DNA from: Comamonas terrae
GTDB taxonomy: Bacteria; Pseudomonadota; Gammaproteobacteria; Burkholderiales; Burkholderiaceae_C
Assembly: GCF_001544075.1 (NCBI RefSeq)
Contig: NZ_BCNT01000011.1
Location: 1-64,000, forward strand
Reading direction: 5' to 3'
DNA: 64,000 nt
Of this stretch, positions 15,424 to 57,078 are shown one piece after another. The position numbers and the translations under genes are program-made. The stretch's first letter is position 1, and each line of letters starts with the position of its first letter. Under the pieces are notes generated by a model that saw only the letters and a program-made list of their open reading frames with translations, was not told the DNA's origin and searched no databases.

Positions 15424-15515
15424 GGGCGCTTTCCAAGCCGGAGACGCCGAGCAAGAGCCGCCTCGCGGCGAGGGCGTCGTTCCCCTTGGGGGAAGGCGCG
15501 CAGCGACTCAGGGGG
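15424..15515 (-). repeat. family-1 post-stop structured repeat, copy A (after flgF)
   Basis: In gene sense it begins CCCCCTGAGTCGCTGCGCGCC directly after the flgF stop codon. Two hairpins follow: TTCCCCC/GGGGAA, then an outer stem GACGCC (15473-15478 on the opposite strand) with GGCGTC (15433-15438), enclosing CGCC-GCGA-GGCG. The tail reads CTCTTGCTCGGCGTC. It shares this layout with copies at 28445, 45797, 56094 and 56974. Confidence 0.85.
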
Positions 15516-16256
15516 TCATCCATTCACGCTCAGCAGCTGGCTGGCGGTCTTGTCGTTGGTTTCGGCGGTCTGCATCAGCTTCATCTGCTGCTCGAACTGG
15601 CGCGAGGCGGCGATCATGCCGACCATGGTCTCCACGGAATTCACGTTGGAGCCTTCGATGGAGCCCGAGAGCAGGCGCGCGTTCTCGTCGTTGGGCAGTG
15701 CATCGCCCTGGGCCGCGCGGAACAGGCCGTCGTCGCCGCGGGTCAGCGGCGCATCCTCGGGCGGGGTGACCAGCTTGATGCGGCCCACGGCCACGGGCAG
15801 CTGGTTGCCGGTCTTGGCGGTGAGCGTGCCGTCCGAACCCAGGGAGATCGTGGACTCGGGCGGGATGTCGATGGGCGCACCGCCGTCCGACAGCACGGGC
15901 ATGCCGTTGCTGTTGACCAGCTGGCCCTCGGGCGAGATTTCGAACACGCCGTTGCGCGTATAGGCCTCCTGGCCGTCCAGTCCCTGCACCGCGAACCAGG
16001 CGCGCCCCATGGCCATGGCGTCCAGCGCGCGGCCGGTGCGCTGGGCGGGGCCGGGCGTGTCCACGTAGCCGGAGGTGGCCTCCAGCGCGAACACGCGCGT
16101 GCCCGAGCCGCTGCCCTGCAGGGGCACCGAGCGGAACGTGGACATCTCGGCCCGGAAGCCGTTGGTGCCGGCGTTGGCCAGATTGTGGGCCAGCACGGCC
16201 TGCCGCTGGGCCGCCGCGTTGGCGCCCGTCATCGACGTATAAATAATGCGGTCCAT
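15516..16256 (-). CDS. flgF: proximal rod protein FlgF
   Basis: Proximal rod subunit between FlgB/FlgC and FlgG. It has 246 residues. The N-terminus MDRIIYTSMTGANAAAQRQ leads into AHNLANAGTNGFRAE, the rod motif variant typical of FlgF. The C-terminal motif is LSGSIEGSNVNSVETMVGMI. The start at 16256 follows AAGGAGA. It lies 38 bp after flgE in the operon; the stop codon abuts repeat copy A. Confidence 0.95.
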   Translation of the reverse strand: MDRIIYTSMTGANAAAQRQAVLAHNLANAGTNGFRAEMSTFRSVPLQGSGSGTRVFALEATSGYVDTPGPAQRTGRALDAMAMGRAWFAVQGLDGQEAYTRNGVFEISPEGQLVNSNGMPVLSDGGAPIDIPPESTISLGSDGTLTAKTGNQLPVAVGRIKLVTPPEDAPLTRGDDGLFRAAQGDALPNDENARLLSGSIEGSNVNSVETMVGMIAASRQFEQQMKLMQTAETNDKTASQLLSVNG

Positions 16257-16294
16257 GCTGGATCTCCTTGCTCTGCTCGGTCAGCGGTTCAGTC

Positions 16295-17575
16295 TTAGCG
16301 CAAGTTCACCAGGGTGGAGAACACCTGGTCCTGCGTCTTGATGGTCTGGGCATTGGCCTGGTAGGAACGCTGGGCGGTCATCATGTTGACCAGCTCGGCG
16401 GTCAGGTCCACGTTGGACTCCTCCAGCGCGCCGGCCTGCAGCGAACCGAAGGTGCCGCTTTGCGCGGAGCCGTTGAGGGCCGGACCGGAATCGGCCGTGG
16501 CCACCCATTTGTTGTCGCCCACCGAGGCCAGGCCCTGGGTATTGGTGAAGGCTGCCAGGGCCAGCTGGGCCTCGGTGCGTGTCACGCCATTGGAATAGGT
16601 GGCCACGATGGAGCCGTCCTTGCTGACATTGACGCCGGTCATCACGCCCGCCGTGTAGCCGTCCTGCTTGAGGTTGCTGACCGCGAACTTGGTGCCGAAC
16701 TGGGTCATGCCGCCCAGGTCGAAAGCCACCGGGAAGGGCGTGCTGCTGCCGCCGCTGCCTGCGACATTGAACGTCAATGCGGTTCCGGCTGCCGTGGCAG
16801 GCGCGTTGCCCGTCACGCCGGTGAGCTTGCCGCTGGTGTCGAAAACGGCGGTGCCGATGGGCGTGGCCGTGACCGGAGGTGTGGCCGTGGGGTCGTCCAG
16901 CTGGTTGTAGATGGTCCAGGTATTGGTTGCCGCATCCTTTTCGAAATACAGGTGGACGGGGATCGCGGTACCCAGGGAGTCGTAGACGTTGAGCGAGGTG
17001 CCGTAGGTGGCGCGCGGCGTCGCCTCGATGGGCGGCGTCGCCGTGGGGTCACCGGCGGCAACCGTCGCGCGGGCATCCAGGTTCAGCTCCACATTCACCT
17101 TGCCGGTCTGCTTGGCCGGAATCGGCTGGCCGGTGGGGAAGCTCAGGGGCACGGGCGTGGCGCCGGCCATGGGCTTGCCCGTGGTCGGGTCCACCAGATA
17201 GCCCATGACGTTGTCGCCGGACACGGTCTTGAGGTTGCCGGCCTTGTCCAGGCCGAAGTTGCCGGCGCGCGTATAGGCCGTGCTGCCGTCGGGCTGCCTG
17301 ACGATGAAGAAGCCGTTGCCGTTGATCGCGATGTCCAGGCTGTTGCCCGTGGTGGAGATCGCGCCCTGGCGGAACTGCTGGGACACGCTGGCCACGTTCA
17401 CGCCGATGCCGCTGGTCTGGCCGCTGGCCGAGCCGATGGCACTGGCCACCATTTCGGCGAAGTCGGCGCGCGAGGACTTGAAGCCCGTGGTGTTGGCGTT
17501 GGCGATGTTGTGGCCGATGACGTCCAGGTTCTTGCTGGCGGCATTCAGGCCGGAGAGGCCTTGTTGGAAACCCAT
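16295..17575 (-). CDS. flgE: flagellar hook protein FlgE
   Basis: Main structural subunit of the flexible hook. It has 426 residues, in the usual range. The N-terminal rod/hook motif is LNAASKNLDVIGHNIANANT followed by TGFKSSR. A variable alanine/threonine/proline-rich middle (about 120-310) forms the exposed domains. The C-terminal motif is LEESNVDLTAELVNMMTAQR. The start at 17575 follows GGAGAACACC. Export needs FlgD as hook cap (encoded upstream) and the FlhB switch to stop. Confidence 0.96.
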   Translation of the reverse strand: MGFQQGLSGLNAASKNLDVIGHNIANANTTGFKSSRADFAEMVASAIGSASGQTSGIGVNVASVSQQFRQGAISTTGNSLDIAINGNGFFIVRQPDGSTAYTRAGNFGLDKAGNLKTVSGDNVMGYLVDPTTGKPMAGATPVPLSFPTGQPIPAKQTGKVNVELNLDARATVAAGDPTATPPIEATPRATYGTSLNVYDSLGTAIPVHLYFEKDAATNTWTIYNQLDDPTATPPVTATPIGTAVFDTSGKLTGVTGNAPATAAGTALTFNVAGSGGSSTPFPVAFDLGGMTQFGTKFAVSNLKQDGYTAGVMTGVNVSKDGSIVATYSNGVTRTEAQLALAAFTNTQGLASVGDNKWVATADSGPALNGSAQSGTFGSLQAGALEESNVDLTAELVNMMTAQRSYQANAQTIKTQDQVFSTLVNLR

Positions 17576-17606
17576 GGTGTTCTCCTGAGAACGATTGGTC
17601 GGTGGT

Positions 17607-18269
17607 TCAGTAGACGGCCTTGACGCCGGAATAGGCCACGCTCTGGCCGTTGTCCAGTTCCAGCGTCAGGCTGCCGTTGGTCGCGCCGGTGGCGATCACG
17701 GCATGCGGCGCCAGCGTGGTGGAGCCCACGGCAGTCGTGCCGTTGGTGGCCGTCACGCTGTAGCGCAGCTGCGAGGTATCGCCGCTGTACTTGCCTTCGG
17801 CCTTCCAGGTGAAATAGTTGCGGCCGGACTGGCCCTCGCCCAGGTCGATGGTGTCCACCAGTTCGCCGGTGGCCGTGGTGATCTGGACCTTGACGCTGGC
17901 GGCTGCGCCGTCCAGGTCGAAGGCCGCGGTGTGCGTGCCGTTGGCGGCCACGCCCAGCGTGTTGCCCTCGGTCAGCACGGTGCGGCCGATCATGGACGTG
18001 CCCTGCAGCACCTGCATGGCCGTGAACTGGCCGGCCATGGTCTGCATGGTCTGGTTCAGCTGCTGGATGCCGGTCACGGTGTTGATCTGCGCCATCTGCG
18101 AGGTCATCTGCGCGTTGTCCATGGGATTCATGGGGTCCTGATTGCTCAGCTGGGCCACCAGCAGCTTCAGGAAGCGGTCCTGCGCCTCGTTGGGGTCGGT
18201 GACCGCGGACTTGCTGTTGCCCGTCGTGCCGGTGGAGGTGGTATCCACGCTGCCTGCGCCGTAAATCAT
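17607..18269 (-). CDS. flgD: flagellar hook cap protein FlgD
   Basis: Hook-cap scaffold needed for FlgE polymerisation, later discarded. It has 220 residues. The conserved N-terminal segment QDRFLKLLVAQLSNQDPMNP sits at about 30-50, followed by MDNAQMTSQMAQINTVTGIQ. The C-terminal half is a FlgD Ig/tudor-like beta domain (AAASVKVQITTATGELVDT). The start at 18269 has a GGGAG site. It lies 16 bp from flgC and 31 bp from flgE. Confidence 0.95.
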   Translation of the reverse strand: MIYGAGSVDTTSTGTTGNSKSAVTDPNEAQDRFLKLLVAQLSNQDPMNPMDNAQMTSQMAQINTVTGIQQLNQTMQTMAGQFTAMQVLQGTSMIGRTVLTEGNTLGVAANGTHTAAFDLDGAAASVKVQITTATGELVDTIDLGEGQSGRNYFTWKAEGKYSGDTSQLRYSVTATNGTTAVGSTTLAPHAVIATGATNGSLTLELDNGQSVAYSGVKAVY

Positions 18270-18285
18270 GCTCTGGCTCCCGGGC

Positions 18286-18690
18286 TCACTGGCCCATCTG
18301 CAAAGTCTTGAGCAGCAGCGTCTTGGCCGTGTTCATGACTTCCACGTTGTTCTGATAGGAGCGCGAGGCCGAGATCATGTTGACCATCTCGTCCACGGCG
18401 CTCACGTTGGAATGGGTGACATAACCCTCGGCATCGGCCAGCGGATGGCTGGGGTCATGGATGCGGCGGCCGGGCGTGTTGTCCTCGCTGATGGCCTTGA
18501 CCTGCACGCCGGCCGAGCCGTCGGTGCCCATGGGCACGGTCTGGAACACCACCTGGCGCGCCTTGTAGGCATTGCCGTCCGGCCCGGCCACGGCGTCGAC
18601 GTTGGCCAGGTTGGAGGCCACCACGTTCAGGCGCTGGGACTGCGCGCTCACCGCGCTGCCGGAGATGTTGAAGATGGAGAACATGGACAT
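18286..18690 (-). CDS. flgC: proximal rod protein FlgC
   Basis: Proximal rod subunit. It has 134 residues, the family length. The N-terminal motif is SQRLNVVASNLANVDAVAGP, and the C-terminal motif is VSAVDEMVNMISASRSYQNN, which matches FlgC closely. The conserved stretch GYVTHSNVSAVDE is present. The start at 18690 has an AGGAG site seven bases upstream. It follows flgB by 27 bp. Confidence 0.96.
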   Translation of the reverse strand: MSMFSIFNISGSAVSAQSQRLNVVASNLANVDAVAGPDGNAYKARQVVFQTVPMGTDGSAGVQVKAISEDNTPGRRIHDPSHPLADAEGYVTHSNVSAVDEMVNMISASRSYQNNVEVMNTAKTLLLKTLQMGQ

Positions 18691-18717
18691 GGAAAAACTC
18701 CTGGTTCGGGCAGCGGC

Positions 18718-19131
18718 TTACTGGCCCTGGATGGCGCTGAGCATGGTCTTGGCCTGGCCGTTGATGAAGCGCAGCGTGGCCTCGTAGCGCACGGCGTTGT
18801 CCACGAAGTTGGCGCGTTCGCGGTCCAGGTCCACCGTGTTGTTGTCCATGCTGGGCTGGGACTGCACCGAGTAGCCCAGCTGGCTCTTGCCCAGCTCGCC
18901 CGTGGCGGCGGCCGGCAGCGGCATGTGGCCGGCGTGGGTCGCGCTGGCCAGGGTCAGCGGCGAAGGGCCGCTGGTGGCCGAAAGCAGGGCTTCGCGGAAA
19001 TTGAAGTCGCGCGCCACATAGCCGGGCGTGTCGGCATTGGCAATATTGCTGGCAATCGTGCGCTGGCGCTCGGCGCGCAGCAGCAGCGCCTTGCTCTGGA
19101 AATCCAGTCGTTCGGTCATTTTGTTCAGCAT
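18718..19131 (-). CDS. flgB: proximal rod protein FlgB
   Basis: First rod subunit and first gene of the minus-strand flg operon. The ATG at 19131 (MLNKMTERLDF) gives 137 residues, the normal length, and follows GAGG seven bases upstream. The rod motif is RQRTIASNIANADTPGYVAR. The C-terminal motif is DRERANFVDNAVRYEATLRF. The open frame extends 66 codons upstream into the divergent promoter region, but that part has no family resemblance. Confidence 0.95.
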   Translation of the reverse strand: MLNKMTERLDFQSKALLLRAERQRTIASNIANADTPGYVARDFNFREALLSATSGPSPLTLASATHAGHMPLPAAATGELGKSQLGYSVQSQPSMDNNTVDLDRERANFVDNAVRYEATLRFINGQAKTMLSAIQGQ

Positions 19132-19218
19132 GGTGGCCTCGCTTCGAAGTTCTGCATGCCAGGGCCCTGGTGTTGGCGCCTGCGCATGGTGGCAGCCCGC
19201 AGACTGCGGCATGCGTCG

Positions 19219-19247
19219 ATTATGGAAATCGGACCGCGGCGCTAAAG
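19219..19247 (-). promoter_or_regulatory. possible promoter of the flgB operon
   Basis: On the minus strand, TTTAGC and CATAAT are separated by 16 bases about 90 bp upstream of flgB, inside the 284-bp flgB/flgA divergent gap. The -35 box is weak, as expected if FlhDC activation is needed. No clear FlhDC box was identified. Confidence 0.3.
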
Positions 19248-19415
19248 CGCGAAGAAAGCGGTTTTGCTCGCCCACTTCCATCCATTGGCGCCGCGCCGCG
19301 CGCCTATATTTGCGGCACAGGCTGAGCAAGCTGCGCCTCTCCGGAAGCCCTGCCTGCCCGCCGACGAATTTGCCTGCCGTTTGCCTGCCGCAACCCGGCT
19401 ATCCAGGAGTGCCCG

Positions 19416-20177
19416 ATGCCCGTTCCCTGCCCGTCCATGCCCACCGCCGCCATGCAGCGCCTGCGCCGCATGGCCGTGGGCTGCGCGCTGGGCCTGCTGG
19501 CAGCGGCAGGCGCCTGGGCACAGCAGGACGGCATTACCCAGCTCAACCAGATCAGCCAGCGCTTCCTGGACGAAGCCCTGCACCAGGGACAGGAAACCCC
19601 GGTCGGCGGCGCCAGCATGCCGCTGCGCATGGAGGTGCAGCTGGGCCAGCTGGACTCGCGCCTGCGCCTGGCGGCCTGCGCCAGGGTGGAGCCCTATCTG
19701 CCGGCCGGCAGCCGCCTTTGGGGCCGGACCCGGCTGGGCCTGCGCTGCCTGCAGGGCGCCGTGCCCTGGAATGTGTTTTTGCCGATCACGGTCAAGGCCT
19801 GGGGCCCGGCCTGGGTGCTGCAGACGGCCGTGCCGGCCGGCAGGACCCTGACCGCCGAAGATGCCGTGCAGGGCGAGGTGGACTGGGCGGAAGACTCCGC
19901 GCCGGTCTTTGCCAATGCCCAGGACTGGGTGGGCATGGTGGCCGCGCGCCCCCTGGCCTCGGGCCAGGCGCTGCGCCAGAACATGCTGCGCCCGCCGCCG
20001 CTGTTTGCCGCCGGCGCACAGGTGCAGGTCATGGTCAACGGCGGCGGATTCGCCGTTTCCGCCTCGGGCAAGGCCATGGCCGCTGCCGGAGCAGGTCAGA
20101 CCGTGCGGGTTCGCATGGATAATGGGCGCCTTGTTTCGGGGACCGTAAGCCCCGAAGGCGTCGTCCTGGTCCAATAA
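19416..20177 (+). CDS. flgA: P-ring assembly chaperone FlgA
   Basis: Periplasmic chaperone for P-ring (FlgI) assembly. It has 253 residues from the ATG at 19416, which has AGGAG six bases upstream. A signal peptide covers about residues 13-36 (MQRLRRMAVGCALGLLAAAG, ending AWA). The C-terminal half carries the SAF-type domain: VLQTAVPAGRTLTAEDAV, LASGQALRQNMLRPPP and VRVRMDNGRLVSGTV. It is divergent from flgB and is followed by flgM after a short gap with its own promoter. Confidence 0.93.
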   Translation: MPVPCPSMPTAAMQRLRRMAVGCALGLLAAAGAWAQQDGITQLNQISQRFLDEALHQGQETPVGGASMPLRMEVQLGQLDSRLRLAACARVEPYLPAGSRLWGRTRLGLRCLQGAVPWNVFLPITVKAWGPAWVLQTAVPAGRTLTAEDAVQGEVDWAEDSAPVFANAQDWVGMVAARPLASGQALRQNMLRPPPLFAAGAQVQVMVNGGGFAVSASGKAMAAAGAGQTVRVRMDNGRLVSGTVSPEGVVLVQ

Positions 20178-20202
20178 AAGCCCTTGCCGTGCAAAAAAGT
20201 CC

Positions 20203-20229
20203 TCAAGTTTCACGCGACGTGGTCGAAAG
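20203..20229 (+). promoter_or_regulatory. sigma-28 (FliA) promoter of flgM
   Basis: TCAAGTTT (20203-20210), an 11-base spacer and GTCGAAAG (20222-20229) match the FliA consensus TAAAGTTT-N11-GCCGATAA closely in sequence and spacing. It lies 46 bp before flgM. In enteric bacteria flgM also has its own class 3 promoter, giving feedback between FlgM and FliA. Confidence 0.75.
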
Positions 20230-20274
20230 CAAGGCTACAGCGCCCTACGCCGCCAGGGCGATTGGAGAATCACC

Positions 20275-20589
20275 ATGAAAATAGGTAACCAGACGGATTT
20301 GCTGCAGGCTGCGCAGATCGCCAAGCAAGCCCCCAAGTCCGCGACCACCGTCGCCACCGAGGAATCGAGCAAAGCCCTGCCCGAGCGTGCCGCCGGCGTG
20401 CCCGTGTCGTTTTCCTCCTCGGCCCGCGCGCTGGACACCCAGACCCGCAGCAATGCAGACTTCGACGCCGACCGCGTGAAGGCCATGCGCGAAGCGATCG
20501 CCAATGGCACGTTCCGCGTCAATGCCGACGCCGTGGCCGACAAGCTGCTGGCCAATTCCGAGGAATTCCTCGTCCACGGCCGCGCCTGA
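20275..20589 (+). CDS. flgM: anti-sigma-28 factor FlgM
   Basis: Binds and inhibits FliA until the hook is complete, then leaves through the flagellar export channel. It has 104 residues. The C-terminal sigma-binding part (about 60-100) contains FDADRVKAMREAIANGTFRV and ADAVADKLLANSEEFL, both typical of FlgM. The N-terminal half is polar and probably disordered. The start has GGAGA about eight bases upstream. It follows a sigma-28 promoter and precedes flgN. Confidence 0.95.
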   Translation: MKIGNQTDLLQAAQIAKQAPKSATTVATEESSKALPERAAGVPVSFSSSARALDTQTRSNADFDADRVKAMREAIANGTFRVNADAVADKLLANSEEFLVHGRA

Positions 20590-20627
20590 GGCGCAGCCTC
20601 TTCTTGTTCACCAGGACAGACCAGACC

Positions 20628-20999
20628 ATGACCCTGCAAGAAATGCTCGACTCGCTGGACGCGGTGGTTCAGACGGCTTCGGCATCGCTGCAAGGCTCGG
20701 ACGCGGCGGTCCTGGAGCAGGCCAGCACCCGCCTGCGCGATGCCATGGTGGCCTTTTCCCAGCTGGCGCGCCGTTTTTCCGCCCAGGACTGGACGCCGGA
20801 GTTGCGCGAGCGCGCCCGGCGCGTGGGCGACGAGCTGACGCTGATGCGCGACCAGATGGCCCGCCTGTCGGTCCTGGCCCAGCGCCGCGCCCAGGCCCTG
20901 GTGCCCATGGCCGGCGATGACACCACCTACGAAAGCAGCCTGCGCGCCAGACCCCAGGCAGGCCCGGGCCGGGCGCGCATCTACCACGCGGCCAGCTGA
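20628..20999 (+). CDS. flgN: flagellar export chaperone FlgN
   Basis: Cytoplasmic chaperone for FlgK and FlgL. The ATG at 20628 gives 123 residues. A TTG codon eight codons earlier is also in frame but less likely. The protein is almost entirely helical by its heptad pattern (LQEMLDSLDAVVQTASASL, LARRFSAQDWTPELRERARR). Sequence conservation in this family is low, so the call rests on size, helical pattern and the flgM neighbour. A terminator follows within 25 bp. Confidence 0.8.
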   Translation: MTLQEMLDSLDAVVQTASASLQGSDAAVLEQASTRLRDAMVAFSQLARRFSAQDWTPELRERARRVGDELTLMRDQMARLSVLAQRRAQALVPMAGDDTTYESSLRARPQAGPGRARIYHAAS

Positions 21000-21023
21000 G
21001 CCGCCCGCGGCCTGACCCATGAG

Positions 21024-21053
21024 AAAGCCCTGCATTGCAGGGCTTTGTTTTTG
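21024..21053. terminator. bidirectional intrinsic terminator between flgN and the MocR gene
   Basis: AAAGCCCTGC pairs with GCAGGGCTTT across a short AT loop and is followed by TTTTT on the + strand. It closes flgN and, with its A-rich left arm, can also serve the minus-strand gene ending at 21141. A short repeated motif (21053-21070) begins right after it. Confidence 0.85.
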
Positions 21054-21070
21054 ATAGCTGCCAGCGCTTG
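21053..21070 (+). repeat. short GATAGCTG-type dispersed motif
   Basis: GATAGCTGCCAGCGCTTG. Related copies are at 32265-32281 and, reversed, at 46016-46033 and 51491-51508. All lie between genes near their 3' ends. Confidence 0.55.
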
Positions 21071-21140
21071 GCCTGCAAGGGATTGGGTCACTTTTTTACG
21101 CAACTCCTGCATACCATTCCCTCGTGTCCGGCGGCCACCC

Positions 21141-22607: not shown

Positions 22608-22737
22608 GGCGACAGACAGATGTGGAAAAGAGCCCCCATGCCTGCTCACTGCGTGGGCGGCTATTCCACGGGGGTATCGCTTCTTGCCGAGGGAGCGGCC
22701 GGGCGGCAACCGGCAGGAAACTGTACCGAAACAAATA

Positions 22738-24182: not shown

Positions 24183-24205
24183 GATCCGGGCAACGCCTAT
24201 CCTGC

Positions 24206-24227: not shown

Positions 24228-24256
24228 CGTATCCACCTTCCTACCGCTTGACGGCC

Positions 24257-25261: not shown

Positions 25262-25522
25262 CAGGGGCCGGGTCTCGCCCCGGCAGGCGAGGTACTTTCT
25301 TGTCGCACGACAAGCAAGTACCCAAAGAAACGTGCCCCATTGCCTGCGACCCTGCGCTTCGCTCCGGGCAAACCTGCGTCACCCGATTCAGTCTGCGGTG
25401 CGCCCCAACTCACTGCGCGCTACGCGCTTCGTTCAGACAAACGGGCGCAAGCCAGATGACGATGCAACGCTGTCCTTCGGCAGCGTTGCCCGCAGCCTGA
25501 ACCGGGTGCCGCAGGCGCAGCC
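25262..25522 (+). repeat. family-2 structured repeat, copy R1
   Basis: It starts with GCCGGGTCTCGCCCCGGCAG and a hairpin around TACTTTCTTGTCG. Helix P1 pairs 25380-25398 with 25490-25508 (17 of 19). Helix P2 pairs TGCGCCC (25399-25405) with GGGCGCA (25443-25449). A hairpin AACGCTG/CAGCGTT follows. The conserved core reads CCCAACTCACTGCGCGC and TTCAGACAAACGG. No credible protein is encoded: open frames here are shadows of the repeat. Confidence 0.8.
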
Positions 25523-25616
25523 AAAGGGGAAATGCGAACGGCCTGCAAGAGCCGTGACGGCGAGGCGCGCAGCGGCAGCCAGGCCGAGCGCAGCGATGGC
25601 TCGCATGGATGTCCGC
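25523..25616. repeat. central linker between the two convergent family-2 copies
   Basis: About 95 bp between R1 and R2, beginning after a CAGCCAAA that is mirrored at the other side (TTTGGCTG). It contains imperfect short inverted repeats built on GGCCTGCAAGAGCC and GAGCGCAGCGATGGCTCGC. No gene was recognised in it. Confidence 0.5.
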
Positions 25617-25886
25617 CCTTTTTGGCTGCGCCTGTGGCGCCCGGTACTTGCTGCGGGTGGCTGTGCCGCAGGACACAGCCACTTCGTGCTCTGGCTTGCG
25701 GCCGCTTGTCTGAGTGGCGCGCCACAGGCGCAGAACGAGTTGGGCCGCACCGCAGCAAGTGCCGGGCGACACAGGTTGCCCGCAGGCGCAGCCGGAGGGT
25801 CGCAGACAGCAGGGCCGGTGCTTTGCCTACTTTCTCACAAGAAAGTAGGTCGCCCGCCGGGGCGAGTCCCGGCCTCTGTCTCTAAA
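25617..25886 (-). repeat. family-2 structured repeat, copy R2 (inverted)
   Basis: Minus-strand copy whose terminal hairpin (CTACTTTCTTGTGAGAAAGTAG in two arms) ends near 25886 with GGCCGGGACTCGCCCCGGCG. Helix P1 pairs 25750-25772 with 25634-25656 (21 of 23), with a different sequence from R1. Helix P2 is TGCGGCC (minus sense, 25743-25749) with GGCCGCA (25697-25703). The terminal hairpin GTGGCTGTG/CACAGCCAC replaces that of R1. R1 and R2 face each other, making 25262-25886 a large imperfect palindrome. Confidence 0.8.
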
Positions 25887-28355: not shown

Positions 28356-28444
28356 CAACTGCGAAAGAAAAACCGCCGCATCCAAAAAACCAAAAAGCTG
28401 CGCTCATACAGAACGCAGCACTCGACCAAGCACACCCCACATCA

Positions 28445-28546
28445 GGGACAGCGAGCAAGGGCCGCCCCGCAGCGAGGCTGTCGTCCCCCTCCCCTAGCGC
28501 AAAGCGCGTAGAGAGAGGGGGAAGGCGCACAGCGACTCAGGGGGAG
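28445..28546 (-). repeat. family-1 post-stop structured repeat, copy B (after the iron-binding protein)
   Basis: In gene sense CTCCCCCTGAGTCGCTGTGC follows the TAA directly. The first hairpin pairs CCCCCTC with GAGGGGG around an extra GCGC-TTT-GCGC stem. The second outer stem is GACAGC (28477-28482, opposite strand) with GCTGTC (28447-28452), a compensated change from copy A. Confidence 0.85.
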
Positions 28547-29584
28547 TTACTTGTCAAACCCGACCTTGTCGACCAGCGCGCTGGCCTGCTTGCGGTACCT
28601 GGCGATCTCGGGCAGCGGCAGCGCATCGACCTTCAGCTCGCCGATGTGCCGGGCCACGACGGGGTCCAGCGCCACGCCCTTGCGCACCGGGTGCTCGTAG
28701 TTGGCCTGGGCATAGAGGTTCTGCGCGGGCTCGGAGACCAGGAACTCCAGCAGCTTGACCGCGCTGTCCTTGTGCGGCGCATGCCGCGCGACCGAGGCGC
28801 CGCTGATGTTCACATGCGTGCCGCCGTCCTTGCTGCCCGCAAACGTGGGCTTGATGACCTTGATGGCATCGCCCCACTTGCGCGCGTCCGTGCCTTCCCT
28901 GGCCGCCTTCATATGGCCCACGTAGTAGGTATTGGCCAGGCCGATGTCGCAGATGCCGCCCAGGATGTCGCGCGCCACATCGCGGTCGCCGCCCGTGGCC
29001 TTGCGCGCCAGATTGGCCTTGACGCCGCGCAGCCACTGCTCGGTGCGGGCCTCGCCGTCATGCGCGATCATGGCCGCGATCAGGGCCGTGTTGTAGGGAT
29101 GCTGGCCCGCGCGGATGCAGACCTTGCCCTTCCACCGGGGATCGGCCAGGTCTTCGTAGCGGAAGCTGTTGAGCGGCAAGTCCTTTTCCGCATAGAGCAC
29201 GCGGGCGCGCATGGACAGCGCGAACCACTGGCCGTCGGCACCGCGCAGCTGGGCGGGGATGGCTGCCTCCAGCGCCCGGGAGCGAACGGGCTGGGTCACG
29301 CCGCCATCCACCAGGTCCAGCTGGTTGCCGATGTCCGCGGTCATCAGCACGTCGGCCGGGGAACGCTCGCCCTCGGCCTTCACGCGCTCGAGCAGGCCGT
29401 CCTTGACGAACACGGTCTTCACGCCGATCTGGGTCTTGGCCGTGAACGCGGCCAGCAGCGGCTGGACCAGTGCGGGCTCGCGCGTGGTGTAGAGCGTGAG
29501 CTCCTCCTGCGCGGCATGGGCGAAGGCCAGGGGCGCGCACAGGCCGGCAATGGCGGCCAGTGCAGACAGGGGTCGTCGGAACAT
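28547..29584 (-). CDS. periplasmic ferric-iron-binding protein (FbpA/FutA-like)
   Basis: Extracytoplasmic solute-binding protein delivering ferric iron to the permease. It has 345 residues from the ATG at 29584, with GGAGA seven bases upstream. A signal peptide covers residues 1-25 (ending AHA-AQ). The mature start EELTLYTTREPALVQPLLAAF is typical of this family. The tyrosine pair in LANTYYVGH at residues 220-221 matches the iron-coordinating tyrosines of FbpA-type proteins. It is the first gene of the iron operon; a Fur-box candidate lies about 140 bp upstream. Confidence 0.92.
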   Translation of the reverse strand: MFRRPLSALAAIAGLCAPLAFAHAAQEELTLYTTREPALVQPLLAAFTAKTQIGVKTVFVKDGLLERVKAEGERSPADVLMTADIGNQLDLVDGGVTQPVRSRALEAAIPAQLRGADGQWFALSMRARVLYAEKDLPLNSFRYEDLADPRWKGKVCIRAGQHPYNTALIAAMIAHDGEARTEQWLRGVKANLARKATGGDRDVARDILGGICDIGLANTYYVGHMKAAREGTDARKWGDAIKVIKPTFAGSKDGGTHVNISGASVARHAPHKDSAVKLLEFLVSEPAQNLYAQANYEHPVRKGVALDPVVARHIGELKVDALPLPEIARYRKQASALVDKVGFDK

Positions 29585-44561: not shown

Positions 44562-45794
<1,233 letters not shown>

Positions 45795-45796
45795 CC

Positions 45797-45889
45797 ACTC
45801 CCCCTGAGGCGCCGGCGCGCCTTCCCCCTCTCTGCTTCGCGGAGGGGGGACGACGCCTTCGCCGCGAGGCGGCTCTTGCTCGGCATTCC
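45797..45889 (+). repeat. family-1 post-stop structured repeat, copy C (after asparaginase)
   Basis: The TGA is followed within two bases by ACTCCCCCTGAG. The first hairpin pairs CCCCCTC with GAGGGGG. The second outer stem GACGCC (45852-45857) faces GGCATT (45882-45887) and pairs at four or five positions. This is the weakest stem of the five copies. Confidence 0.8.
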
Positions 45890-46001
45890 TTGCGAAAGAG
45901 GCGATGCGAGCGGCAGGGTGGGTGAGGTATTGAAAACGCCTTGCGCGGGTCTTGCCTGTGCAGGGTAATCTCATCCAATAAGTTGCGCTGCAATCGGCTT
46001 C

Positions 46002-46033: not shown

Positions 46034-46073
46034 AGATCCGAGAGAAGCTATCCCGTATCCGGTATTGCCCCTT

Positions 46074-46343
46074 GTGACCACGCCTGCGACGGCGGCCTCT
46101 TGGGGCGCGCGGCTGCACCGCAGAGTGCAGACGCTTCGTGCTCTGACTTGCGGCCGTTTGTCTGAACGTAGCGCCACAGGCGCGCAGTGAGTTGGGGGCC
46201 GCACAGCCCCAAGAGGTTGACGGCGCAGGTTGCCCCGTACCGCAGCGAAGGCGTGGGCAGTAAGGGCTGTGCTCTTTGCCTACTTTCTTGCACAAGAAAG
46301 TAGATCGCCTGCCGGGGCGAAATCCCGGCCTCTGTACGCCAAT
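46074..46343 (-). repeat. family-2 structured repeat, copy R3
   Basis: A single minus-strand copy. The terminal hairpin (CTACTTTCTTGTGCAAGAAAG in two arms) lies at about 46280-46303, next to GGCCGGGATTTCGCCCCGGC. Helix P1 is CCTCTTGGGGC (46206-46216, minus sense) with GCCCCAAGAGG (46096-46106), 11 of 11 and unlike R1 or R2. Helix P2 is TGCGGCC with GGCCGCA. The core CCCAACTCACTGCGCGCCTG and TTCAGACAAACGGCCGCAAG is shared. Confidence 0.8.
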
Positions 46344-49561: not shown

Positions 49562-49571
49562 ACGATTGCCT

Positions 49572-50093: not shown

Positions 50094-50099
50094 AGCACC

Positions 50100-51299
50100 A
50101 TGCAACGAACTTTTCTCACCCCCGCCGTGGCATTGGCAACCCTGGCCTGCGGCGCCTGGACACTGCCGGCGCAAGCCCAGGCGTCGGCCCCCGGCATCCT
50201 GGATCCCGAGGCCTGGCGCCAGTGCGCGGCCACCACCGACAACTCGGCGCGCCTGGCCTGCTTCGATGCCTGGGCCCGGAGCCAGCAGCCGCTCACCGCA
50301 CCGCCCGCCACCGGCTGGAGCGCCCCGGCCGCACTTGCCAGCAGCGCCAGCACTCCGGCACAGGCCTCCGAAGCGGCGGCCGTGGTCACGGCCGCAGGCG
50401 ACGCCGGCCAGGGACTGGCCCTGCCCGTCACTCCGACCAACGGCGGCTGCCGCGATCCGCGCTACAGCGAAATCTCGCGCTTTTACGAGCTGGAGCCCGG
50501 CTCGGACTGCGGCACCTTCAGCTTCCGCGGCTACCGGCCCATGTCGGTGTCCGCCGTGCTGGGCAGCCGCGTCGACGACCAGCCCCACTCGCCCAGCCGC
50601 GGTTCGCCCGACTCCGAGGCCTACCAGAAGCACGAGATGCGCATCCAGCTGTCGGCGCGCACCAAGATCGCCTCGGGCCTGCTGACCGGGCCGGCCTCCG
50701 GCGGCAAGGACTCGCTGTGGTTCGGCTATACCCAGCAGTCGTACTGGCAGCTGTTCAACGGCGCCATCTCGCGCCCCTTCCGCACCACGGACCACGAGCC
50801 CGAGGTGTTCTACGTCTATCCCACCGATGCGCAGCTGCCCTTCGGCTGGCGCTGGCGCTATTCGGGCGTGGGCCTGGTGCACCAGTCCAACGGCCAGAGC
50901 AACCCGCTGTCGCGCAGCTGGAATCGCTGGTATCTGATGACCGGCGCCGAACTCGGCAACCGCTGGCAGCTGCACCTCAAGGCCTGGAAGCGCATCCACG
51001 AAAGCACGCTGGAAGACGACAATCCGCACATCCAGGACTACATAGGCCGCGGCGAAATCAAGCTGGGCTGGAACGTCAACGACCAGAACTACCTGGGCTT
51101 CACGGCCCGCGGCTCGCTGGGCCAGGGCAGGGGCTCGGGCCGCATCGAATGGCTGCGCACCCTGGGCGAAGGCTGGAACGGCGGCAAGAGCAATCTGCGC
51201 CTGCATGTGCAGCTGTTCAGCGGCTATGGCGACAGCCTGGTGGACTACAACTACAAGCGCACGGTGCTGAGCGTGGGCCTGAGCCTGCTGGACTTCTAG
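50100..51299 (+). CDS. pldA: outer-membrane phospholipase A (PldA)
   Basis: Outer-membrane beta-barrel phospholipase that removes misplaced phospholipids from the outer leaflet. It has 399 residues, longer than the E. coli enzyme because of an extra N-terminal domain (about 30-140, DPEAWRQCAATTDNSARLAC). A signal peptide ends AQA near residue 26. The active site is GLVHQSNGQSNPLSRSWNRW, with H261 and S263 matching the catalytic His-Ser of PldA. KRIHESTLEDDNPHIQDYIG and the C-terminal aromatic-ended strand are typical. It converges on the RidA-like gene. Confidence 0.93.
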   Translation: MQRTFLTPAVALATLACGAWTLPAQAQASAPGILDPEAWRQCAATTDNSARLACFDAWARSQQPLTAPPATGWSAPAALASSASTPAQASEAAAVVTAAGDAGQGLALPVTPTNGGCRDPRYSEISRFYELEPGSDCGTFSFRGYRPMSVSAVLGSRVDDQPHSPSRGSPDSEAYQKHEMRIQLSARTKIASGLLTGPASGGKDSLWFGYTQQSYWQLFNGAISRPFRTTDHEPEVFYVYPTDAQLPFGWRWRYSGVGLVHQSNGQSNPLSRSWNRWYLMTGAELGNRWQLHLKAWKRIHESTLEDDNPHIQDYIGRGEIKLGWNVNDQNYLGFTARGSLGQGRGSGRIEWLRTLGEGWNGGKSNLRLHVQLFSGYGDSLVDYNYKRTVLSVGLSLLDF

Positions 51300-51427
51300 G
51301 CGCCTTCCATCCCGGCGGACGGCACCGCCGCCGCGGCGTATCCGGCCCACGCCCTTGCCCGCAGCCGCCGGCCTGGACACTCCTGTCTTGCGGACCGCGG
51401 CCATCTCCTGCCGCGCACTCATATTCC

Positions 51428-51507
51428 ATAGCTGGCAACACTTGCTCCTTATTGATTTCAAGCCTTTCGAGCATTGAAATCCAATGGATACAAGCGCTGC
51501 CAGCTAT
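51428..51507. repeat. imperfect 80-bp cruciform with GATAGCTG-type ends
   Basis: ATAGCTGGCAACACTTG (51428-51444) pairs with CAAGCGCTGCCAGCTAT (51491-51507) at 15 of 17 positions. Inside, ATTTCAA and TTGAAAT form a second stem. It sits in the convergent gap between pldA and the RidA-like gene and may act as a terminator, although T tracts are lacking. Confidence 0.6.
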
Positions 51508-51517
51508 CAAAATGAAA

Positions 51518-51910
51518 TCACTCCGGCACCACGGCCGTGACCTCGATCTCCACCTTGGCACGGTCCTCGATCAGCGCCGCCACCTGCACGGCCGTCATGG
51601 CCACGCTGAACGAGCCTATGAGTTCGCGGTAGGCCTGGCCGATCTCGGCTTGGCGCGCCAGGTACTCCTTCTTGTCGGTGATGTACCAGGTCATGCGCAC
51701 GATGTGCTCGGGCCCGGCGCCGCCTTCCTTGAGCACGTCCACCACGTTCTGCAGCGCCTGGCGCACCTGGCCGGCCAGATCGTCGGTGTGGAAGCGGCCC
51801 TGACCGTCCCAGCCGATCATGCCGGCCACATAGATCTGGCGGCCGCTCACGGCCACGCCGTTGGCATAGCCTTTGGGGCGGGGCCAGCCCGCAGGCAGCA
51901 ATACTTGCAT
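51518..51910 (-). CDS. RidA-family protein of the aminobenzoate operon
   Basis: Member of the RidA/YjgF family, 130 residues from the ATG at 51910, where AAGGA lies six bases upstream. The ATG at 51916 overlaps the preceding stop by four bases and is also possible. RidA proteins hydrolyse enamine/imine intermediates. In RidA the key arginine lies in a PARSxVEV-type stretch; the matching position here reads VAMTAVQVAAL, so the arginine appears replaced by methionine. The C-terminal VEIEVTAVVPE fits the family. It is the last gene of the operon and may handle an amino-enone intermediate or have a different role. Confidence 0.8.
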   Translation of the reverse strand: MQVLLPAGWPRPKGYANGVAVSGRQIYVAGMIGWDGQGRFHTDDLAGQVRQALQNVVDVLKEGGAGPEHIVRMTWYITDKKEYLARQAEIGQAYRELIGSFSVAMTAVQVAALIEDRAKVEIEVTAVVPE

Positions 51911-51912
51911 GG

Positions 51913-52365
51913 TCATTCCTTTTCTTGTGACGGGATGGCGAGCCACTGCGCAATCGCCGCGCGGATGTGGTCGGGAACGGCAATGGCCTGATGGGTCTGC
52001 AGATCGGTGAACACCAGCACCTTGGTGGCGGCCACGCGCAGTCCGCCGTCGGGCCCCGTGCAGTCCACGGCCAGCGTCAGCGAACGGTTGCCCAGCCTGG
52101 CCACGCGCAGGCCGAAATCCACGGTCTCGCCCATGCGCGTGATGGCGCGGAAGTCGCACTCCAGGTGCACGATGGGCAGGCCGGTGCGGTCCTGCGCCAC
52201 CATGTCGGCATAGGGCACGCCCAGGGCGCGGTTGAACCAGTCCTCGACCAGGCCGTTGAACAGCACCAGGTACTGCGGAAAGAAGATGATGCCCGCGGGA
52301 TCGCAGTGCGCGAAGCGTATGGGCACCTGGCTGACGAAGCGCGGCGCGGCGGATGTCTGTGTCAT
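51913..52365 (-). CDS. 4HBT-type acyl-CoA thioesterase
   Basis: Hot-dog-fold thioesterase, 150 residues from the ATG at 52365, with a GAAGGGG-type ribosome site. The motif RFAHCDPAGIIFFPQYLVLF carries the aspartate (residue 22) used by 4-hydroxybenzoyl-CoA thioesterase-like enzymes. In aromatic-CoA pathways such enzymes probably free CoA from stalled intermediates; that role here is inference. It starts 11 bp after the CoA ligase gene and its stop overlaps a possible start of the RidA-like gene. Confidence 0.85.
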   Translation of the reverse strand: MTQTSAAPRFVSQVPIRFAHCDPAGIIFFPQYLVLFNGLVEDWFNRALGVPYADMVAQDRTGLPIVHLECDFRAITRMGETVDFGLRVARLGNRSLTLAVDCTGPDGGLRVAATKVLVFTDLQTHQAIAVPDHIRAAIAQWLAIPSQEKE

Positions 52366-52375
52366 GGCCGCCCCT

Positions 52376-53992
52376 TCACTGCCCGTGCAGCCTGAAGCGC
52401 TGCAGCTTGCCCGTGGGCGTGCGCGGCAGCTGGTCGACAAAGGCCACGGCGCGCGGATATTTGTAGGGCGCCACGGTGCTTTTCACGAAATCCTGCAGCT
52501 CCCTGGCCATGGCATCGCCTGCCGCATGCCCGGCACGCAGCACGACAAAGGCCTTGACGATCTGGCCGCGCTCCGCGTCGGCCACGCCGATCACCGCGCA
52601 CTCGGCCACGGCCGGGTGCTGCATCAGGGCCTCCTCCACCTCGGGCGCCGCGATGTTGTAGCCGGCCGAAATGATCATGTCGTCGATGCGCGCCTGGTAG
52701 ACGAAGTAGCCGTCGGCATCCATCAGGTAGGCGTCGCCCGTGAGGTTCCAGCCATGCTGCACGTAGTTGCGCTGGCGCGCGTCGTTCAGGTAGCGGCAGC
52801 CCGTGGGGCCCTGCACGGCCAGTTTGCCCACCGTGCCCGGCGGCAGCTCGTTGCCGTCGTCATCCACCACGCGCGCGCGGTAGCCGGGCACGGCCTTGCC
52901 GGTGGCGCCGGGGCGGGCTTCGTCCTCGCGGTGCGAGATGAAGATGTGCAGCATCTCGGTGGAGCCTATGCCGTCGATGATCTCGATGCCGGTGGCGTCC
53001 TTCCACAGCGCGCGCGTGGAGGCCGTGAGCGCCTCGCCGGCCGACACGCATTTGCGCAGCCGCGTGCGGCGTATGCGCTCGCCCTGCTGGGCCATGACGC
53101 GATACGACGTGGGCGCCGTGAACACCACGGTGGCGCCGAAGCGCTCCATGCCGTCCACCAGCTGGTTGGGTCCGGCCTTTTCCAGCAGCGCCATGGAGGC
53201 GCCTATGGACATGGGAAACAGCACCTGCCCGCCCAGGCCGAAGGTGAAGGCCAGGGGAGGGCTGCCGATGAACACGTCATCGGCATGGGCGCGCAGCACG
53301 CTCTGCGGCCAGCAGGCGCAGACGGCCATCACGTCGCGGTGGAAATGCATGGTGGCCTTGGGCACGCCCGTGGTGCCAGACGTAAAGCCCAGCAGGCAGG
53401 TATCGGTGGCGGCCGTGTCCACGGCATCAAAGTGCGGCGAGGCCTGTGCCATGAGGGCTTCGAGCGTGCCGGCATCCTCGGCGCGCGCATTGAAAAAGCG
53501 CACGGATTTCAGCACCTGGCTTTTCTGCTGCGCGCCCAGCACTTCGGCGCGCAGCGCGTCGTCGCACAGCGCATGGCTGACCCGGGCGATGTCGACGATG
53601 GTGGACAGCTCCTTGGCGCGCAGCAGCGGCATGGCCGCCACGGCAATGCCGCCGGCCTTGACCACGCCGAACCAGCTGGCCACCAGCATGGGGTTGTTGG
53701 GGCCGCACAGCAGCACGCGGTTGCCCGGCACCAGCCCCATGTCCCGCGTCAGCACATGGGCGATGCGGTTGGCCTTTTCCTGCAGCTCGGCATAGGTCCA
53801 GCGCACGCCGTCGGCCTGCACGCACAGCCGGTCGCCGCGCCCTTCCTGCACATGGCGGTCCAGCAGCTCGGCCGCGCAGTTCAGCCGCTCGGGAAACTGC
53901 AGCTCGGGCAGCTCGAACAGGTAGTCGGGCTGCAGCTCGGCGGGCGGCAGGTTGTCGGCAGCAAAGGTGTCGATATGAGCGGTATAGGTCAT
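52376..53992 (-). CDS. 2-aminobenzoate/benzoate-type CoA ligase
   Basis: AMP-forming aryl-CoA ligase that activates an aromatic acid. It has 538 residues. The P-loop GFTSGTTGVPKATMHFHRD is at about 202-220, and ISAGYNIAAPEVEE and RTPTGKLQRF (catalytic lysine about 529) follow. LAFTFGLGGQVLFPMSIGAS resembles benzoate/2-aminobenzoate CoA ligases. Operon context with a 2-aminobenzoyl-CoA monooxygenase/reductase favours 2-aminobenzoate (anthranilate), but specificity is not proven by the sequence. It lies 15 bp after the acyl-CoA dehydrogenase and 11 bp before the thioesterase. Confidence 0.85.
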   Translation of the reverse strand: MTYTAHIDTFAADNLPPAELQPDYLFELPELQFPERLNCAAELLDRHVQEGRGDRLCVQADGVRWTYAELQEKANRIAHVLTRDMGLVPGNRVLLCGPNNPMLVASWFGVVKAGGIAVAAMPLLRAKELSTIVDIARVSHALCDDALRAEVLGAQQKSQVLKSVRFFNARAEDAGTLEALMAQASPHFDAVDTAATDTCLLGFTSGTTGVPKATMHFHRDVMAVCACWPQSVLRAHADDVFIGSPPLAFTFGLGGQVLFPMSIGASMALLEKAGPNQLVDGMERFGATVVFTAPTSYRVMAQQGERIRRTRLRKCVSAGEALTASTRALWKDATGIEIIDGIGSTEMLHIFISHREDEARPGATGKAVPGYRARVVDDDGNELPPGTVGKLAVQGPTGCRYLNDARQRNYVQHGWNLTGDAYLMDADGYFVYQARIDDMIISAGYNIAAPEVEEALMQHPAVAECAVIGVADAERGQIVKAFVVLRAGHAAGDAMARELQDFVKSTVAPYKYPRAVAFVDQLPRTPTGKLQRFRLHGQ

Positions 53993-54007
53993 GGTCAGCC
54001 TCGCTAT

Positions 54008-55174
<1,167 letters not shown>

Positions 55175-55175
55175 G

Positions 55176-56030
55176 TCAGTTCCCTTCAAATACCGGCTTT
55201 TGCTTGGCCACGAACGCGTGGTAGGCGCGCGCGAAGTCTTCGGTCAGCATGCAGATGGCCTGGGCCTGGGCCTCGGCCTCGATGGCCTGCTCCACGGTCA
55301 TGGCCCATTCCTGGTGCAGCATGGTCTTGGTGATGCCGTTGGCGAACGTCGGGCCGGCGGCCAGGTCGGCCGCGAGCCGCTGCGCCTGCTCCAGCAGGGC
55401 CTCGGGCTCGCACAGGCGGTTGAAGAAGCCCCAGCGCTCGCCCTCCTCGCCGCCCAGGCTGCGGCCGGTGTACAGCAGCTCGCTGGCGCGGCCCTGGCCG
55501 ATGATGCGCGGCAGGATGGCGCAGGCGCCCATGTCGCAGCCCGCCAGGCCCACGCGGTTGAACAGAAAGGCCGTCTTGCTGCGCGCCGTGCCCAGGCGCA
55601 TGTCCGAGGCCATGGCCATGATGGCGCCGGCACCGGCGCAGACGCCGTCGACGGCCGCGATGATGGGCTGGGGGCAGGCGCGCATGGTCTTGACCAGCTC
55701 GCCCGTCATGCGAGTGAACATCAGCAGCTCGGGCGCCTTGAGCTGCACCAGCGGGCCGATGATCTCGTGCACGTCGCCGCCCGAGCAGAAGTTGCCGCCC
55801 GCGCCCACCAGCACCACGGCCTTCACGTCCTGCGCCCACTTGAGCTTGTGGAACAGGTCGCGCAGCTCGGCGTAGGAGTCGAAGGTCAGCGGGTTCTTGC
55901 GTTCGGCGCGGTTGAGCGTGACCGTGGCCACGCCGCCGTCGACCTGCCACAGGAAGTGCCGTGCCTGGTAGCCGGCCAGCTGCTGGTGGTTGCCCGCCAC
56001 CAGGGCGGGATCGATTGCGTATTCACTCAT
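55176..56030 (-). CDS. enoyl-CoA hydratase/isomerase family protein
   Basis: Crotonase-fold enzyme, 284 residues from the ATG at 56030. [20 protein letters not shown], the oxyanion-hole segment [20 protein letters not shown] and [20 protein letters not shown] are present. The second conserved catalytic region reads [20 protein letters not shown]. It probably hydrates or opens an unsaturated CoA intermediate after ring reduction. The gene is separated from the SDR gene by 149 bp holding repeat copy D, and is one base from the dehydrogenase gene. Confidence 0.9.
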
Positions 56031-56093
56031 CTTGGTCTCGCTCTCCATTGAATAAGTCATCCAAGGCACTGTCTCTCAAGCCACCCCAGCCCA

Positions 56094-56175
56094 AGCCAGT
56101 GGCGCCGAGCAAGAGCCGCCCCGCTGCGAAGGCGCCGTCCCCCTTCCAGGGGGAAGCCGCGTAGCGGCTCAGGGG
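56094..56175 (-). repeat. family-1 post-stop structured repeat, copy D (after the SDR gene)
   Basis: In gene sense the TGA is followed after four bases by CCCTGAGCCGCTACGCGG. The first hairpin pairs CCCCCT with AGGGGG around GGA. The second outer stem is GGCGCC (56131-56136, opposite strand) with GGCGCC (56101-56106), another compensated version. Confidence 0.85.
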
Positions 56176-56179
56176 TGCA

Positions 56180-56947
56180 TCACACTTCGCCGCCGGCCAC
56201 CGCAATGGCCTGGCCGGTAACGGCGCCGGCGCCCGGGCCGCACAGCCAGAGCACGGCATCGGCCACCTCCTGCGGCTGCACCAGCCGGCCCTGGGGGTTG
56301 CCCTTGACGAATTCGGCCATGGCCTGCTCGGGCGTGCGGCCGGTCTTTTCGACCACGCGCGCAATGCTCTCGCGCACGATCTCGGTTTCGGTATAGCCGG
56401 GGCAGACGGCATTGATGGTGACGCCCTTCTTCGCAAACTCCAGCGCCAGCGAGCGGGTCAATCCCACCACGCCATGCTTGGCCGCCACATAGGCGGCGAC
56501 ATAGGCATAGCCCTTGAGCCCCGCGGTGCTGGCCACGTTGACGATGCGCCCGTAGCCCGCCGCCGCCATCGCGGGCAGCACCTGCTGCATGCACAGCATG
56601 GTGCCGGTGAGGTTGACGGCCAGCATGTTCTGCCACTGCGCCGCGTCCATCTTGAGGAACGGCGCGCTCTGCGCCTGGCCGGCGTTGTTGACCAGAATAC
56701 TGATAGCGCCTTGCGCTTGCTGTGCCTGGTCAAAGGCCGTTTTTACCTCTGATTCGCTCGCCACATCGGCCAGTTCCATGCGGCATTGGCCAGCAAACTC
56801 GTCCACCAGCTTGCGCAGCGGCTCGGCCCTGCGCCCCAGCACCGTGACCCTGGCGCCGTGCGCCAGCAGCTGGCGCGCAATGGCCTCGCCTATGCCCTGG
56901 CCCGCGCCGGTCACCAACGCATGTTGGTTATTCAAATCGCGCGTCAT
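56180..56947 (-). CDS. short-chain dehydrogenase/reductase (3-hydroxyacyl-CoA dehydrogenase-like)
   Basis: NAD(P)-dependent SDR, 255 residues from the ATG at 56947, preceded by GGAGAA. The cofactor motif is VTGAGQGIGEAIARQL, followed by LVNNAGQAQSAPF and the catalytic YVAAYVAAKHG with serine upstream in NVASTAGLKGY. The C-terminal part VCPGYTETEIVRESI is usual for 3-hydroxyacyl-CoA or related alcohol dehydrogenases. In the operon it would oxidise a hydroxyl group made by the hydratase. It is flanked by repeat copies D and E. Confidence 0.9.
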   Translation of the reverse strand: MTRDLNNQHALVTGAGQGIGEAIARQLLAHGARVTVLGRRAEPLRKLVDEFAGQCRMELADVASESEVKTAFDQAQQAQGAISILVNNAGQAQSAPFLKMDAAQWQNMLAVNLTGTMLCMQQVLPAMAAAGYGRIVNVASTAGLKGYAYVAAYVAAKHGVVGLTRSLALEFAKKGVTINAVCPGYTETEIVRESIARVVEKTGRTPEQAMAEFVKGNPQGRLVQPQEVADAVLWLCGPGAGAVTGQAIAVAGGEV

Positions 56948-56973
56948 CGAGTTCTCCATAGCGCATGAAACTG

Positions 56974-57078
56974 GCGCGCTCCAAGCCAGAGATACCGAGC
57001 AAGAGCCGCCTCGCAGCGAAGGTATCGTCCCCCTCCCGCGAAGCGAGAGAGGGGGAAGGCGCGCAGCGACTCAGGGAG
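56974..57078 (-). repeat. family-1 post-stop structured repeat, copy E (after the monooxygenase/reductase)
   Basis: In gene sense the TGA is followed after a few bases by ACTCCCTGAGTCGCTGCGC. The first hairpin pairs CCCCCTC with GAGGGGG around TCTCGCTTCGCGG. The second outer stem is GATACC (57021-57026, opposite strand) with GGTATC (56991-56996). Confidence 0.85.

Follow-up and report, generated by a model that had tools for sequence, protein, structure and literature searches.

A structured repeat anchored behind stop codons in Comamonas terrae and its relatives, a candidate movable mRNA tail

We analyzed a 64,000-nt stretch of Comamonas terrae DNA (NCBI RefSeq assembly GCF_001544075.1, contig NZ_BCNT01000011.1, positions 1 to 64,000 of the forward strand; hereafter the window), which carries five copies of a structured repeat element that opens with a CCCTGAG tag just downstream of protein-coding genes. 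The strict placement of this element behind stop codons, in the sense of the preceding gene, holds across species, and its copies are old. Judging from this placement behind many unrelated genes, the element is probably a movable messenger RNA (mRNA) tail rather than randomly scattered DNA. A preliminary description of the window had claimed that the five stretches are related, share the orientation of the gene before them, and follow its stop codon directly. We find that they are indeed homologous and that all lie in the sense of the preceding gene, with CCCTGAG beginning within a few nucleotides of a same-sense stop in every case (Table 1).

Two models and an alignment underlie the counts reported here: R1, a sequence-only model of the five window copies; A4, an alignment of 49 copies picked from 79, with long-insert and some low-scoring copies excluded; and R2, which combines A4 with structure. 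Genes were called with our own codon-based gene finder. A 1.65-Mb sample of the C. terrae genome yielded 115 R2 matches, two of which are pieces of one copy that straddles two stretches. Outside contigs C4, C5, and C7, the sampled stretches were chosen for holding matches, as were those from the second Comamonas compared, C. testosteroni NFYY023 (CP044131.1). A same-sense stop is the 5′ neighbor of 109 of the 114 C. terrae copies, the other five facing a gene start, and 103 of 114 lie within 15 nt of that stop, compared with 6.7% of random intergenic 125-mers (binomial p about 5e-107). Contigs C4, C5, and C7 taken together, which are contiguous sequence not selected around single matches (1.04 Mb), placed 59 of 63 copies within 15 nt behind a same-sense stop. 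The C. testosteroni sample behaved in the same way, with 82 of 87 copies behind a same-sense stop and 78 of 87 within 15 nt; four faced a start, and one was called inside a gene. Named loci of other Comamonadaceae and Alcaligenaceae, a sample drawn by the pattern of the element's first hairpin (H0, below), gave 95 matches in 80 of 119 stretches among the matches listed; of the 93 with a known neighbor, 90 followed a same-sense stop and 84 did so within 15 nt (82 of 91 without two loci from the C. testosteroni record). Among other genomes, mostly Alcaligenaceae, 107 of 119 copies stood behind a same-sense stop and 12 faced a start, with 70 of 119 within 15 nt, a lower figure from a sample rich in tandem arrays, where the first copy alone can touch the stop. 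Across samples, 6.7–9.6% of random intergenic 125-mers fell within 15 nt behind a same-sense stop. Scoring a covariance model against stop codons, the check proposed in the preliminary description, thus had the predicted outcome, an excess of same-sense copies near stops.

The anchoring is polar and strict. Of 65 copies in convergent gaps, which have a stop at either end, the 5′ end lay within 15 nt of its own stop in 63 and the 3′ end in 17. High- and low-scoring C. terrae copies were equally strict (51/57 and 52/57). Host stops in C. terrae (n = 105) comprised 55 TGA, 22 TAA, and 9 TAG codons, together with 19 cases in which the TGA within CCCTGAG itself serves as the stop. We rejected a fixed stop-codon target, as this usage is close to that of all genes (TGA 1035, TAA 246, TAG 201); TAA was somewhat over-represented as host stop in C. 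testosteroni (37/77 vs 253/696). At four sites (L089:9043, L087:8495, L133:3240, and L380:3647) it is the 3′ end that abuts the stop, and these may be inversions or miscalled genes.

The element consists of the CCCTGAG tag and four hairpins over roughly 110–140 nt (R2 spans of 112–137 nt in the window, with weak conservation over the final ~10 nt). Judged by how far the flanks are conserved in 79 copies, its 5′ border lies at ACC-CCCTGAG and its 3′ border about 25–30 nt past GGCGTC. An extent of ~100 bp had originally been proposed; its CCCTGAG start stands, while its end near CTCTTGCTCG has to be moved, conservation running ~30 nt further and taking in a fourth hairpin with its T run. In A4 the order is H0 (AGNNGC/GCNNCT), H1 (CCCCC/GGGGG, with a variable apex), H2 (a long stem), H3 (CTGGC/GCCAG), and the T run. 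Covariation is strong in H0 and H2: the outer stem of H2 occurs as GACGCC/GGCGTC, GACAGC/GCTGTC, and GATACC/GGTATC, and its inner part covaries too. Double changes affect 15 of 32 pairs in A4, compared with 10.8 ± 1.8 in shuffles, 11 of 500 of which reach the observed count. Double-change cells number 104, against 37.3 ± 7.2 in shuffles and 16–34 with slid partners, although kinship of the copies inflates such scores. Copies in genome G245 have the same architecture in other letters (CCCCCGAAGCGC, GCGCTTC, GACGCC...GGCGTC, TGTTTTCATG). Scoring against 4227 Rfam models gave no hit anywhere in the window at gathering score and none at E ≤ 1 for positions 56900–57150.

With R1, the C. terrae genome holds the element in at least 146 places at E ≤ 0.01, a floor because 150 of 2565 first-look candidates were scored. 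Scans of other genomes, likewise giving floors, matched 44 of 150 genomes of the family (E ≤ 1e-5, 23 candidates scored each), 8 of 300 of the order (E ≤ 1e-4, 11 candidates each), and 15 of 121 of family f4 (E ≤ 0.01, 29 candidates each); most genomes in all three gave no match. Hosts among the matches listed include Acidovorax, Paracidovorax, Comamonas, Delftia, Diaphorobacter, Hylemonella, Ramlibacter, Inhella, Achromobacter, and Bordetella petrii. Tandem arrays occur at G245:C1:4301529-4302154 (period ~129 nt, weak scores) and G147:C1:3628255-3628686 (~147 nt); no tandem arrangement was seen among the window copies. Queried with one copy, plasmid sequences gave two matching records and phage sequences none.

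Comparison of orthologous gene ends revealed both persistence and turnover. From 399 reciprocal best proteins between the C. terrae and C. testosteroni stretches we obtained 384 usable gene ends: 25 carry the element in both species, 10 in C. terrae alone, 24 in C. testosteroni alone, and 325 in neither. About 4.5 shared sites would be expected from the margins. At 13 of the 34 one-sided sites the sequence past the element aligns to the downstream DNA of the empty site (at four from the stop codon or before); 21 were unaligned. At L379 and L368, a hairpin-T structure of the empty site lies behind the element at the filled site. We take the one-sided sites to be probable insertions rather than losses. 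The flgF-flgG junction is filled in 3 of 10 genomes (C. terrae, G554, and G280), is a short spacer in C. testosteroni, G564, G555, G567, and G568, and holds unrelated DNA in G562. In G566 (L421), a copy that by eye appears decayed and 5′-truncated gives no R2 match. The preliminary description had judged the element unlike a random mobile repeat. Its placement is as strict as that implies, but gene ends gain or lose the element and native DNA resumes behind it, so that strict placement goes together with insertion-like behavior. Near-identical copies are rare: among pairs of similar length, identity of at least 90% was found in 2 pairs among 109 C. terrae copies and 1 pair among 83 C. testosteroni copies. 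Among 130 pairs of orthologous 3′ regions that lack the element, similarity hardly exceeds that of random pairs (0.549 vs 0.481); it is somewhat higher in the 40 nt past shared elements (0.577 vs 0.469), and fourfold sites, scored in 150 of the 399 gene pairs, are 0.641 identical. That shared sites nonetheless hold intact elements implies constraint, re-seeding, or conversion.

We tentatively favor a role in the 3′ untranslated region, in message stability or cistron separation, for what would be an old, dispersed, insertion-type family. Stability and translation control, two of the three roles suggested in the preliminary description, may apply. On this proposal the element would open the 3′ untranslated RNA of the upstream gene, and this RNA would form a chain of GC-rich hairpins that begins at the stop or no more than about 20 nt past it. 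It would act after transcription, shielding the upstream message from 3′ decay and separating neighboring cistrons, with no efficient transcription end at the element itself. Copy 5 of the window illustrates the predicted separation. In C. testosteroni this copy is absent and its two flanking genes overlap at ATGA; the window instead has the element and a 123-nt gap (57083/56959), with the 3′ tail of the element extending to the start of the dehydrogenase gene. Translational coupling of the genes at 56180–59404 may consequently be lost in the window. Co-transcription, folding in cells, and an effect on stability or translation are what we infer from the sequence. In favor of such a role we count the strict placement, the one-sided anchoring in convergent gaps, the covariation, the number of shared orthologous sites relative to expectation, and the high occupancy of short same-strand gaps (below). 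Several findings count against it. The folds of the window copies surpass those of shuffles by a moderate margin only (z −0.76 to −2.98). Mismatches in H0 and H2 show no sense-strand bias (G.U 24 and 64, A.C 28 and 60, respectively) in a test run on alignments fitted to the model. Unbiased mismatches are expected if pairing is kept at the DNA level, and the missing preference for sense RNA weakens a purely RNA reading; G.U exceeds A.C in H1 (193 vs 79) and H3 (170 vs 79). Shared-site copies are 0.829 alike, against 0.785 for random pairs, with 7 of 25 above the random 95th percentile, and their compensated and broken H2 pairs (40/20) resemble those of random copies (49.4/20.7). With these values so near random, the shared copies may have been conserved in place or may stem from re-insertion or gene conversion.

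The main rival is a selfish element confined to the stop-proximal spot, its place set by its mode of insertion or by purging elsewhere, without benefit to the host, and its hairpins serving its own copying, for instance as single-stranded DNA. We hold this somewhat unlikely. The presence and absence of the element between species, the insertion-like filled and empty pairs, the unbiased H0 and H2 mismatches, the strictness common to high- and low-scoring copies, and the tandem arrays in G147 and G245 all speak for it. Other findings speak against it. Target duplication is not general: 12 of 260 copies share at least 7 nt across the element, with 8.9 expected from permuted pairs and hence no clear excess, and the suggestive duplications measure 12, 9, 8, and 7 nt, the longest at L048:6689. 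There are no convincing terminal inverted repeats of the kind that mark a MITE; we discarded ATGAAAC/GTTTCAT in this capacity, as too few C. terrae copies carry the motifs (ATGAA[AG]C in 9/105, GTTTCAT in 9/105). Hardly any copies are near-identical, and no fixed stop-codon sequence is used. Mobilization by a RAYT was also rejected: the single Y1_Tnp gene in the genome (G000:C3:564363-564653) has no element in its near flanks, the closest model match being ~2 kb off and weak (25.5 bits). Integron attC sites have GTTRRRY/RYYYAAC ends and stand in cassette arrays. By eye we rejected an attC identity for the element, whose 3′ end is GTTTCAT-like and whose copies are dispersed over contigs.

A weak terminator or attenuator, in which H3 and the T run would release part of the transcripts and lower downstream expression, appears improbable. 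TTTT directly follows H3 in 24 of 114 C. terrae and 31 of 87 C. testosteroni copies (at least five T in 8 nt in 16/114 and 19/87), a T run is present in the G245 copies too, and H3 has the G.U excess noted above. H3 is weakly kept, however, with 67.8% of its cells paired in A4, and native hairpin-T structures persist behind some copies, as at L379 and L368. Roughly three in four copies lie ahead of a gene on the same strand (82/107 in C. terrae, 60/79 in C. testosteroni). Occupancy peaks in same-strand gaps of 1–30 nt (29/223 and 23/101) and is lower at convergent ends (25/440 and 19/188), a distribution that argues against a terminator at transcript ends and not against partial termination. 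A terminator scan, positive for 3/107 C. terrae and 9/79 C. testosteroni copies, carries little weight, since it is blind to the 5-pair stem and 9-nt loop of H3 and finds sites at just 7–9% of element-free ends. With a T run often present and a weak stem, the element may or may not terminate transcription.

A more speculative idea, to which we give little credence, is that the stop codon guides insertion as a functional landmark rather than as a DNA sequence, the spread of the repeat being linked either to the termination of translation or to an RNA intermediate. Insertion of this kind would account for three observations: TGA, TAA, and TAG all serve as host stops, the element keeps to the sense orientation, and high-scoring copies are placed no more strictly than low-scoring ones. 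Least probable by our estimate is a REP-like translational brake, in which a hairpin no more than 15 nt past the stop would stall terminating ribosomes and trigger mRNA cleavage: the 103 of 114 copies within 15 nt match the <16 nt reported as necessary for E. coli REPs (PMC12306157), but with core genes such as flgF highly occupied, many genes would be braked.

Among known repeats, the element probably belongs to the beta-proteobacterial repeat element (BRE) family, an assignment drawn from the published description. In the accessible text of Hot et al. 2011 (PMC3110155), whose authors left function open, BREs are ~90 bp long, have a mean GC of 69%, are mostly intergenic with tandem copies, and occur in the same host groups (Bordetella, Delftia acidovorans, and Acidovorax citrulli); by our own count, none of the 23 locus entries in Table 3 of that paper lies between divergent genes. 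Our element likewise occurs in Alcaligenaceae and Comamonadaceae, with Bordetella petrii, Achromobacter, Delftia acidovorans, and Paracidovorax citrulli among the matches listed. The same text differs in placing some BRE copies within coding sequences, in counting no more than 29 per genome (at least 146 here), and in giving the type transcript, bprJ, on the strand opposite both neighbors. We found no description of stop anchoring or fold in the accessible parts of PMC3110155, nor of stop anchoring of this repeat family in a literature search with little coverage of subscription journals. Beside lexA, a BRE neighbor in Bordetella, there was no match at E ≤ 0.01 in six genomes of the genus of G245, which may differ from the published one. 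Small mobile repeats of the YPAL and ERIC kind show filled and empty orthologous sites, as does our element (34 one-sided among 384 ends). YPAL favors sites behind stop codons. The available portion of PMC2229807 describes YPAL/RU-2 of Yersinia as a ~170-bp repeat without terminal inverted repeats, filled or empty between species and proposed to function within the upstream gene's RNA; its target duplications of 3–26 bp are not generally observed here, and its name and host are unrelated, the comparison being one of descriptions. E. coli REP/BIME sequences, too, are hairpin repeats that lie outside genes, on their downstream side. Some 50% of REPs (260/496 as cited) are within 15 nt of a stop, and in the GTAG type the repeat often contributes the stop codon itself, much like CCCTGAG in our element (PMC12306157, PMC3733652). 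REPs in these sources are 20–40-bp palindromes with a GTAG or CGTC tag, whereas our element is polar, 110–140 nt long, four-hairpinned, and tagged by CCCTGAG, with ~90% of copies within 15 nt of a stop, one orientation, and no linked RAYT.

Table 1 Element copies in the window, the neighbors of copy 1, and the hairpins of copy 5
Feature	Position	Strand	Details
Copy 1	15405..15516	-	R2 99.3 bits; CCCTGAG 2 nt past stop; first model base overlaps stop codon
flgF-type gene	15516-16256		before copy 1
flgG-type gene	14601-15383		after copy 1
Copy 2	28410..28545	-	R2 99.5 bits; CCCTGAG 4 nt past stop of solute-binding protein gene (stop 28547-28549)
Copy 3	45799..45935	+	R2 86.2 bits; CCCTGAG 7 nt past stop of asparaginase gene (44694-45794)
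Copy 4	56063..56177	-	R2 102.7 bits; CCCTGAG 5 nt past stop of short-chain dehydrogenase gene (56180-56959)
Copy 5	56953..57079	-	R2 130.1 bits (top score); CCCTGAG 6 nt past stop of monooxygenase-reductase gene (57083-59404)
Copy 5, H0	57057..57071	-	A4 columns 9-24, placed by hand from alignment
Copy 5, H1	57028..57056	-	A4 columns 25-69, by hand; apex length varies among copies
Copy 5, H2	56991..57026	-	A4 columns 71-124, by hand; strongest covariation
Copy 5, H3, then TTTC	56971..56989	-	A4 columns 127-147, by hand; weakly kept

Pfam assigned the five host genes of the window to FlgE/F/G domains, SBP_bac_6, asparaginase, short-chain dehydrogenase, and FAD_binding_3 with Oxidored_FMN, which makes the first a rod protein of the FlgE/F/G type and the last a fusion of FAD monooxygenase and FMN oxidoreductase. 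Copies 2, 3, and 4 are also present in C. testosteroni, copy 2 at the orthologous gene end. The gene after copy 3 is convergent, and the 3′ part of this copy departs from the family consensus. The window contains other repeats. A second short repeat, GATAGCTGCCAGCGCTTG, at 21039–21070 and 51491–51522 resembles DNA at gene ends in C. terrae and C. testosteroni, and a repeat like it is retained behind the element at one orthologous site. The related regions 25265–25744 and 46067–46330, by eye unrelated to the element, contain repeats in both direct and inverted orientation, with arms of 113 nt that are 73% complementary and 130 nt that are 74% alike.

In the stretches examined, which were partly chosen for holding copies, the element would be the first piece of the 3′ untranslated region of ~7% of predicted C. 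terrae genes and 11% of those of C. testosteroni. In Comamonadaceae it may therefore represent a large, uncharacterized layer of post-transcriptional control. With an anchoring to stops that is near-absolute, it makes testable an old question that extends to REP- and MITE-like repeats: are repeats behind stop codons tolerated there, useful there, or sent there?

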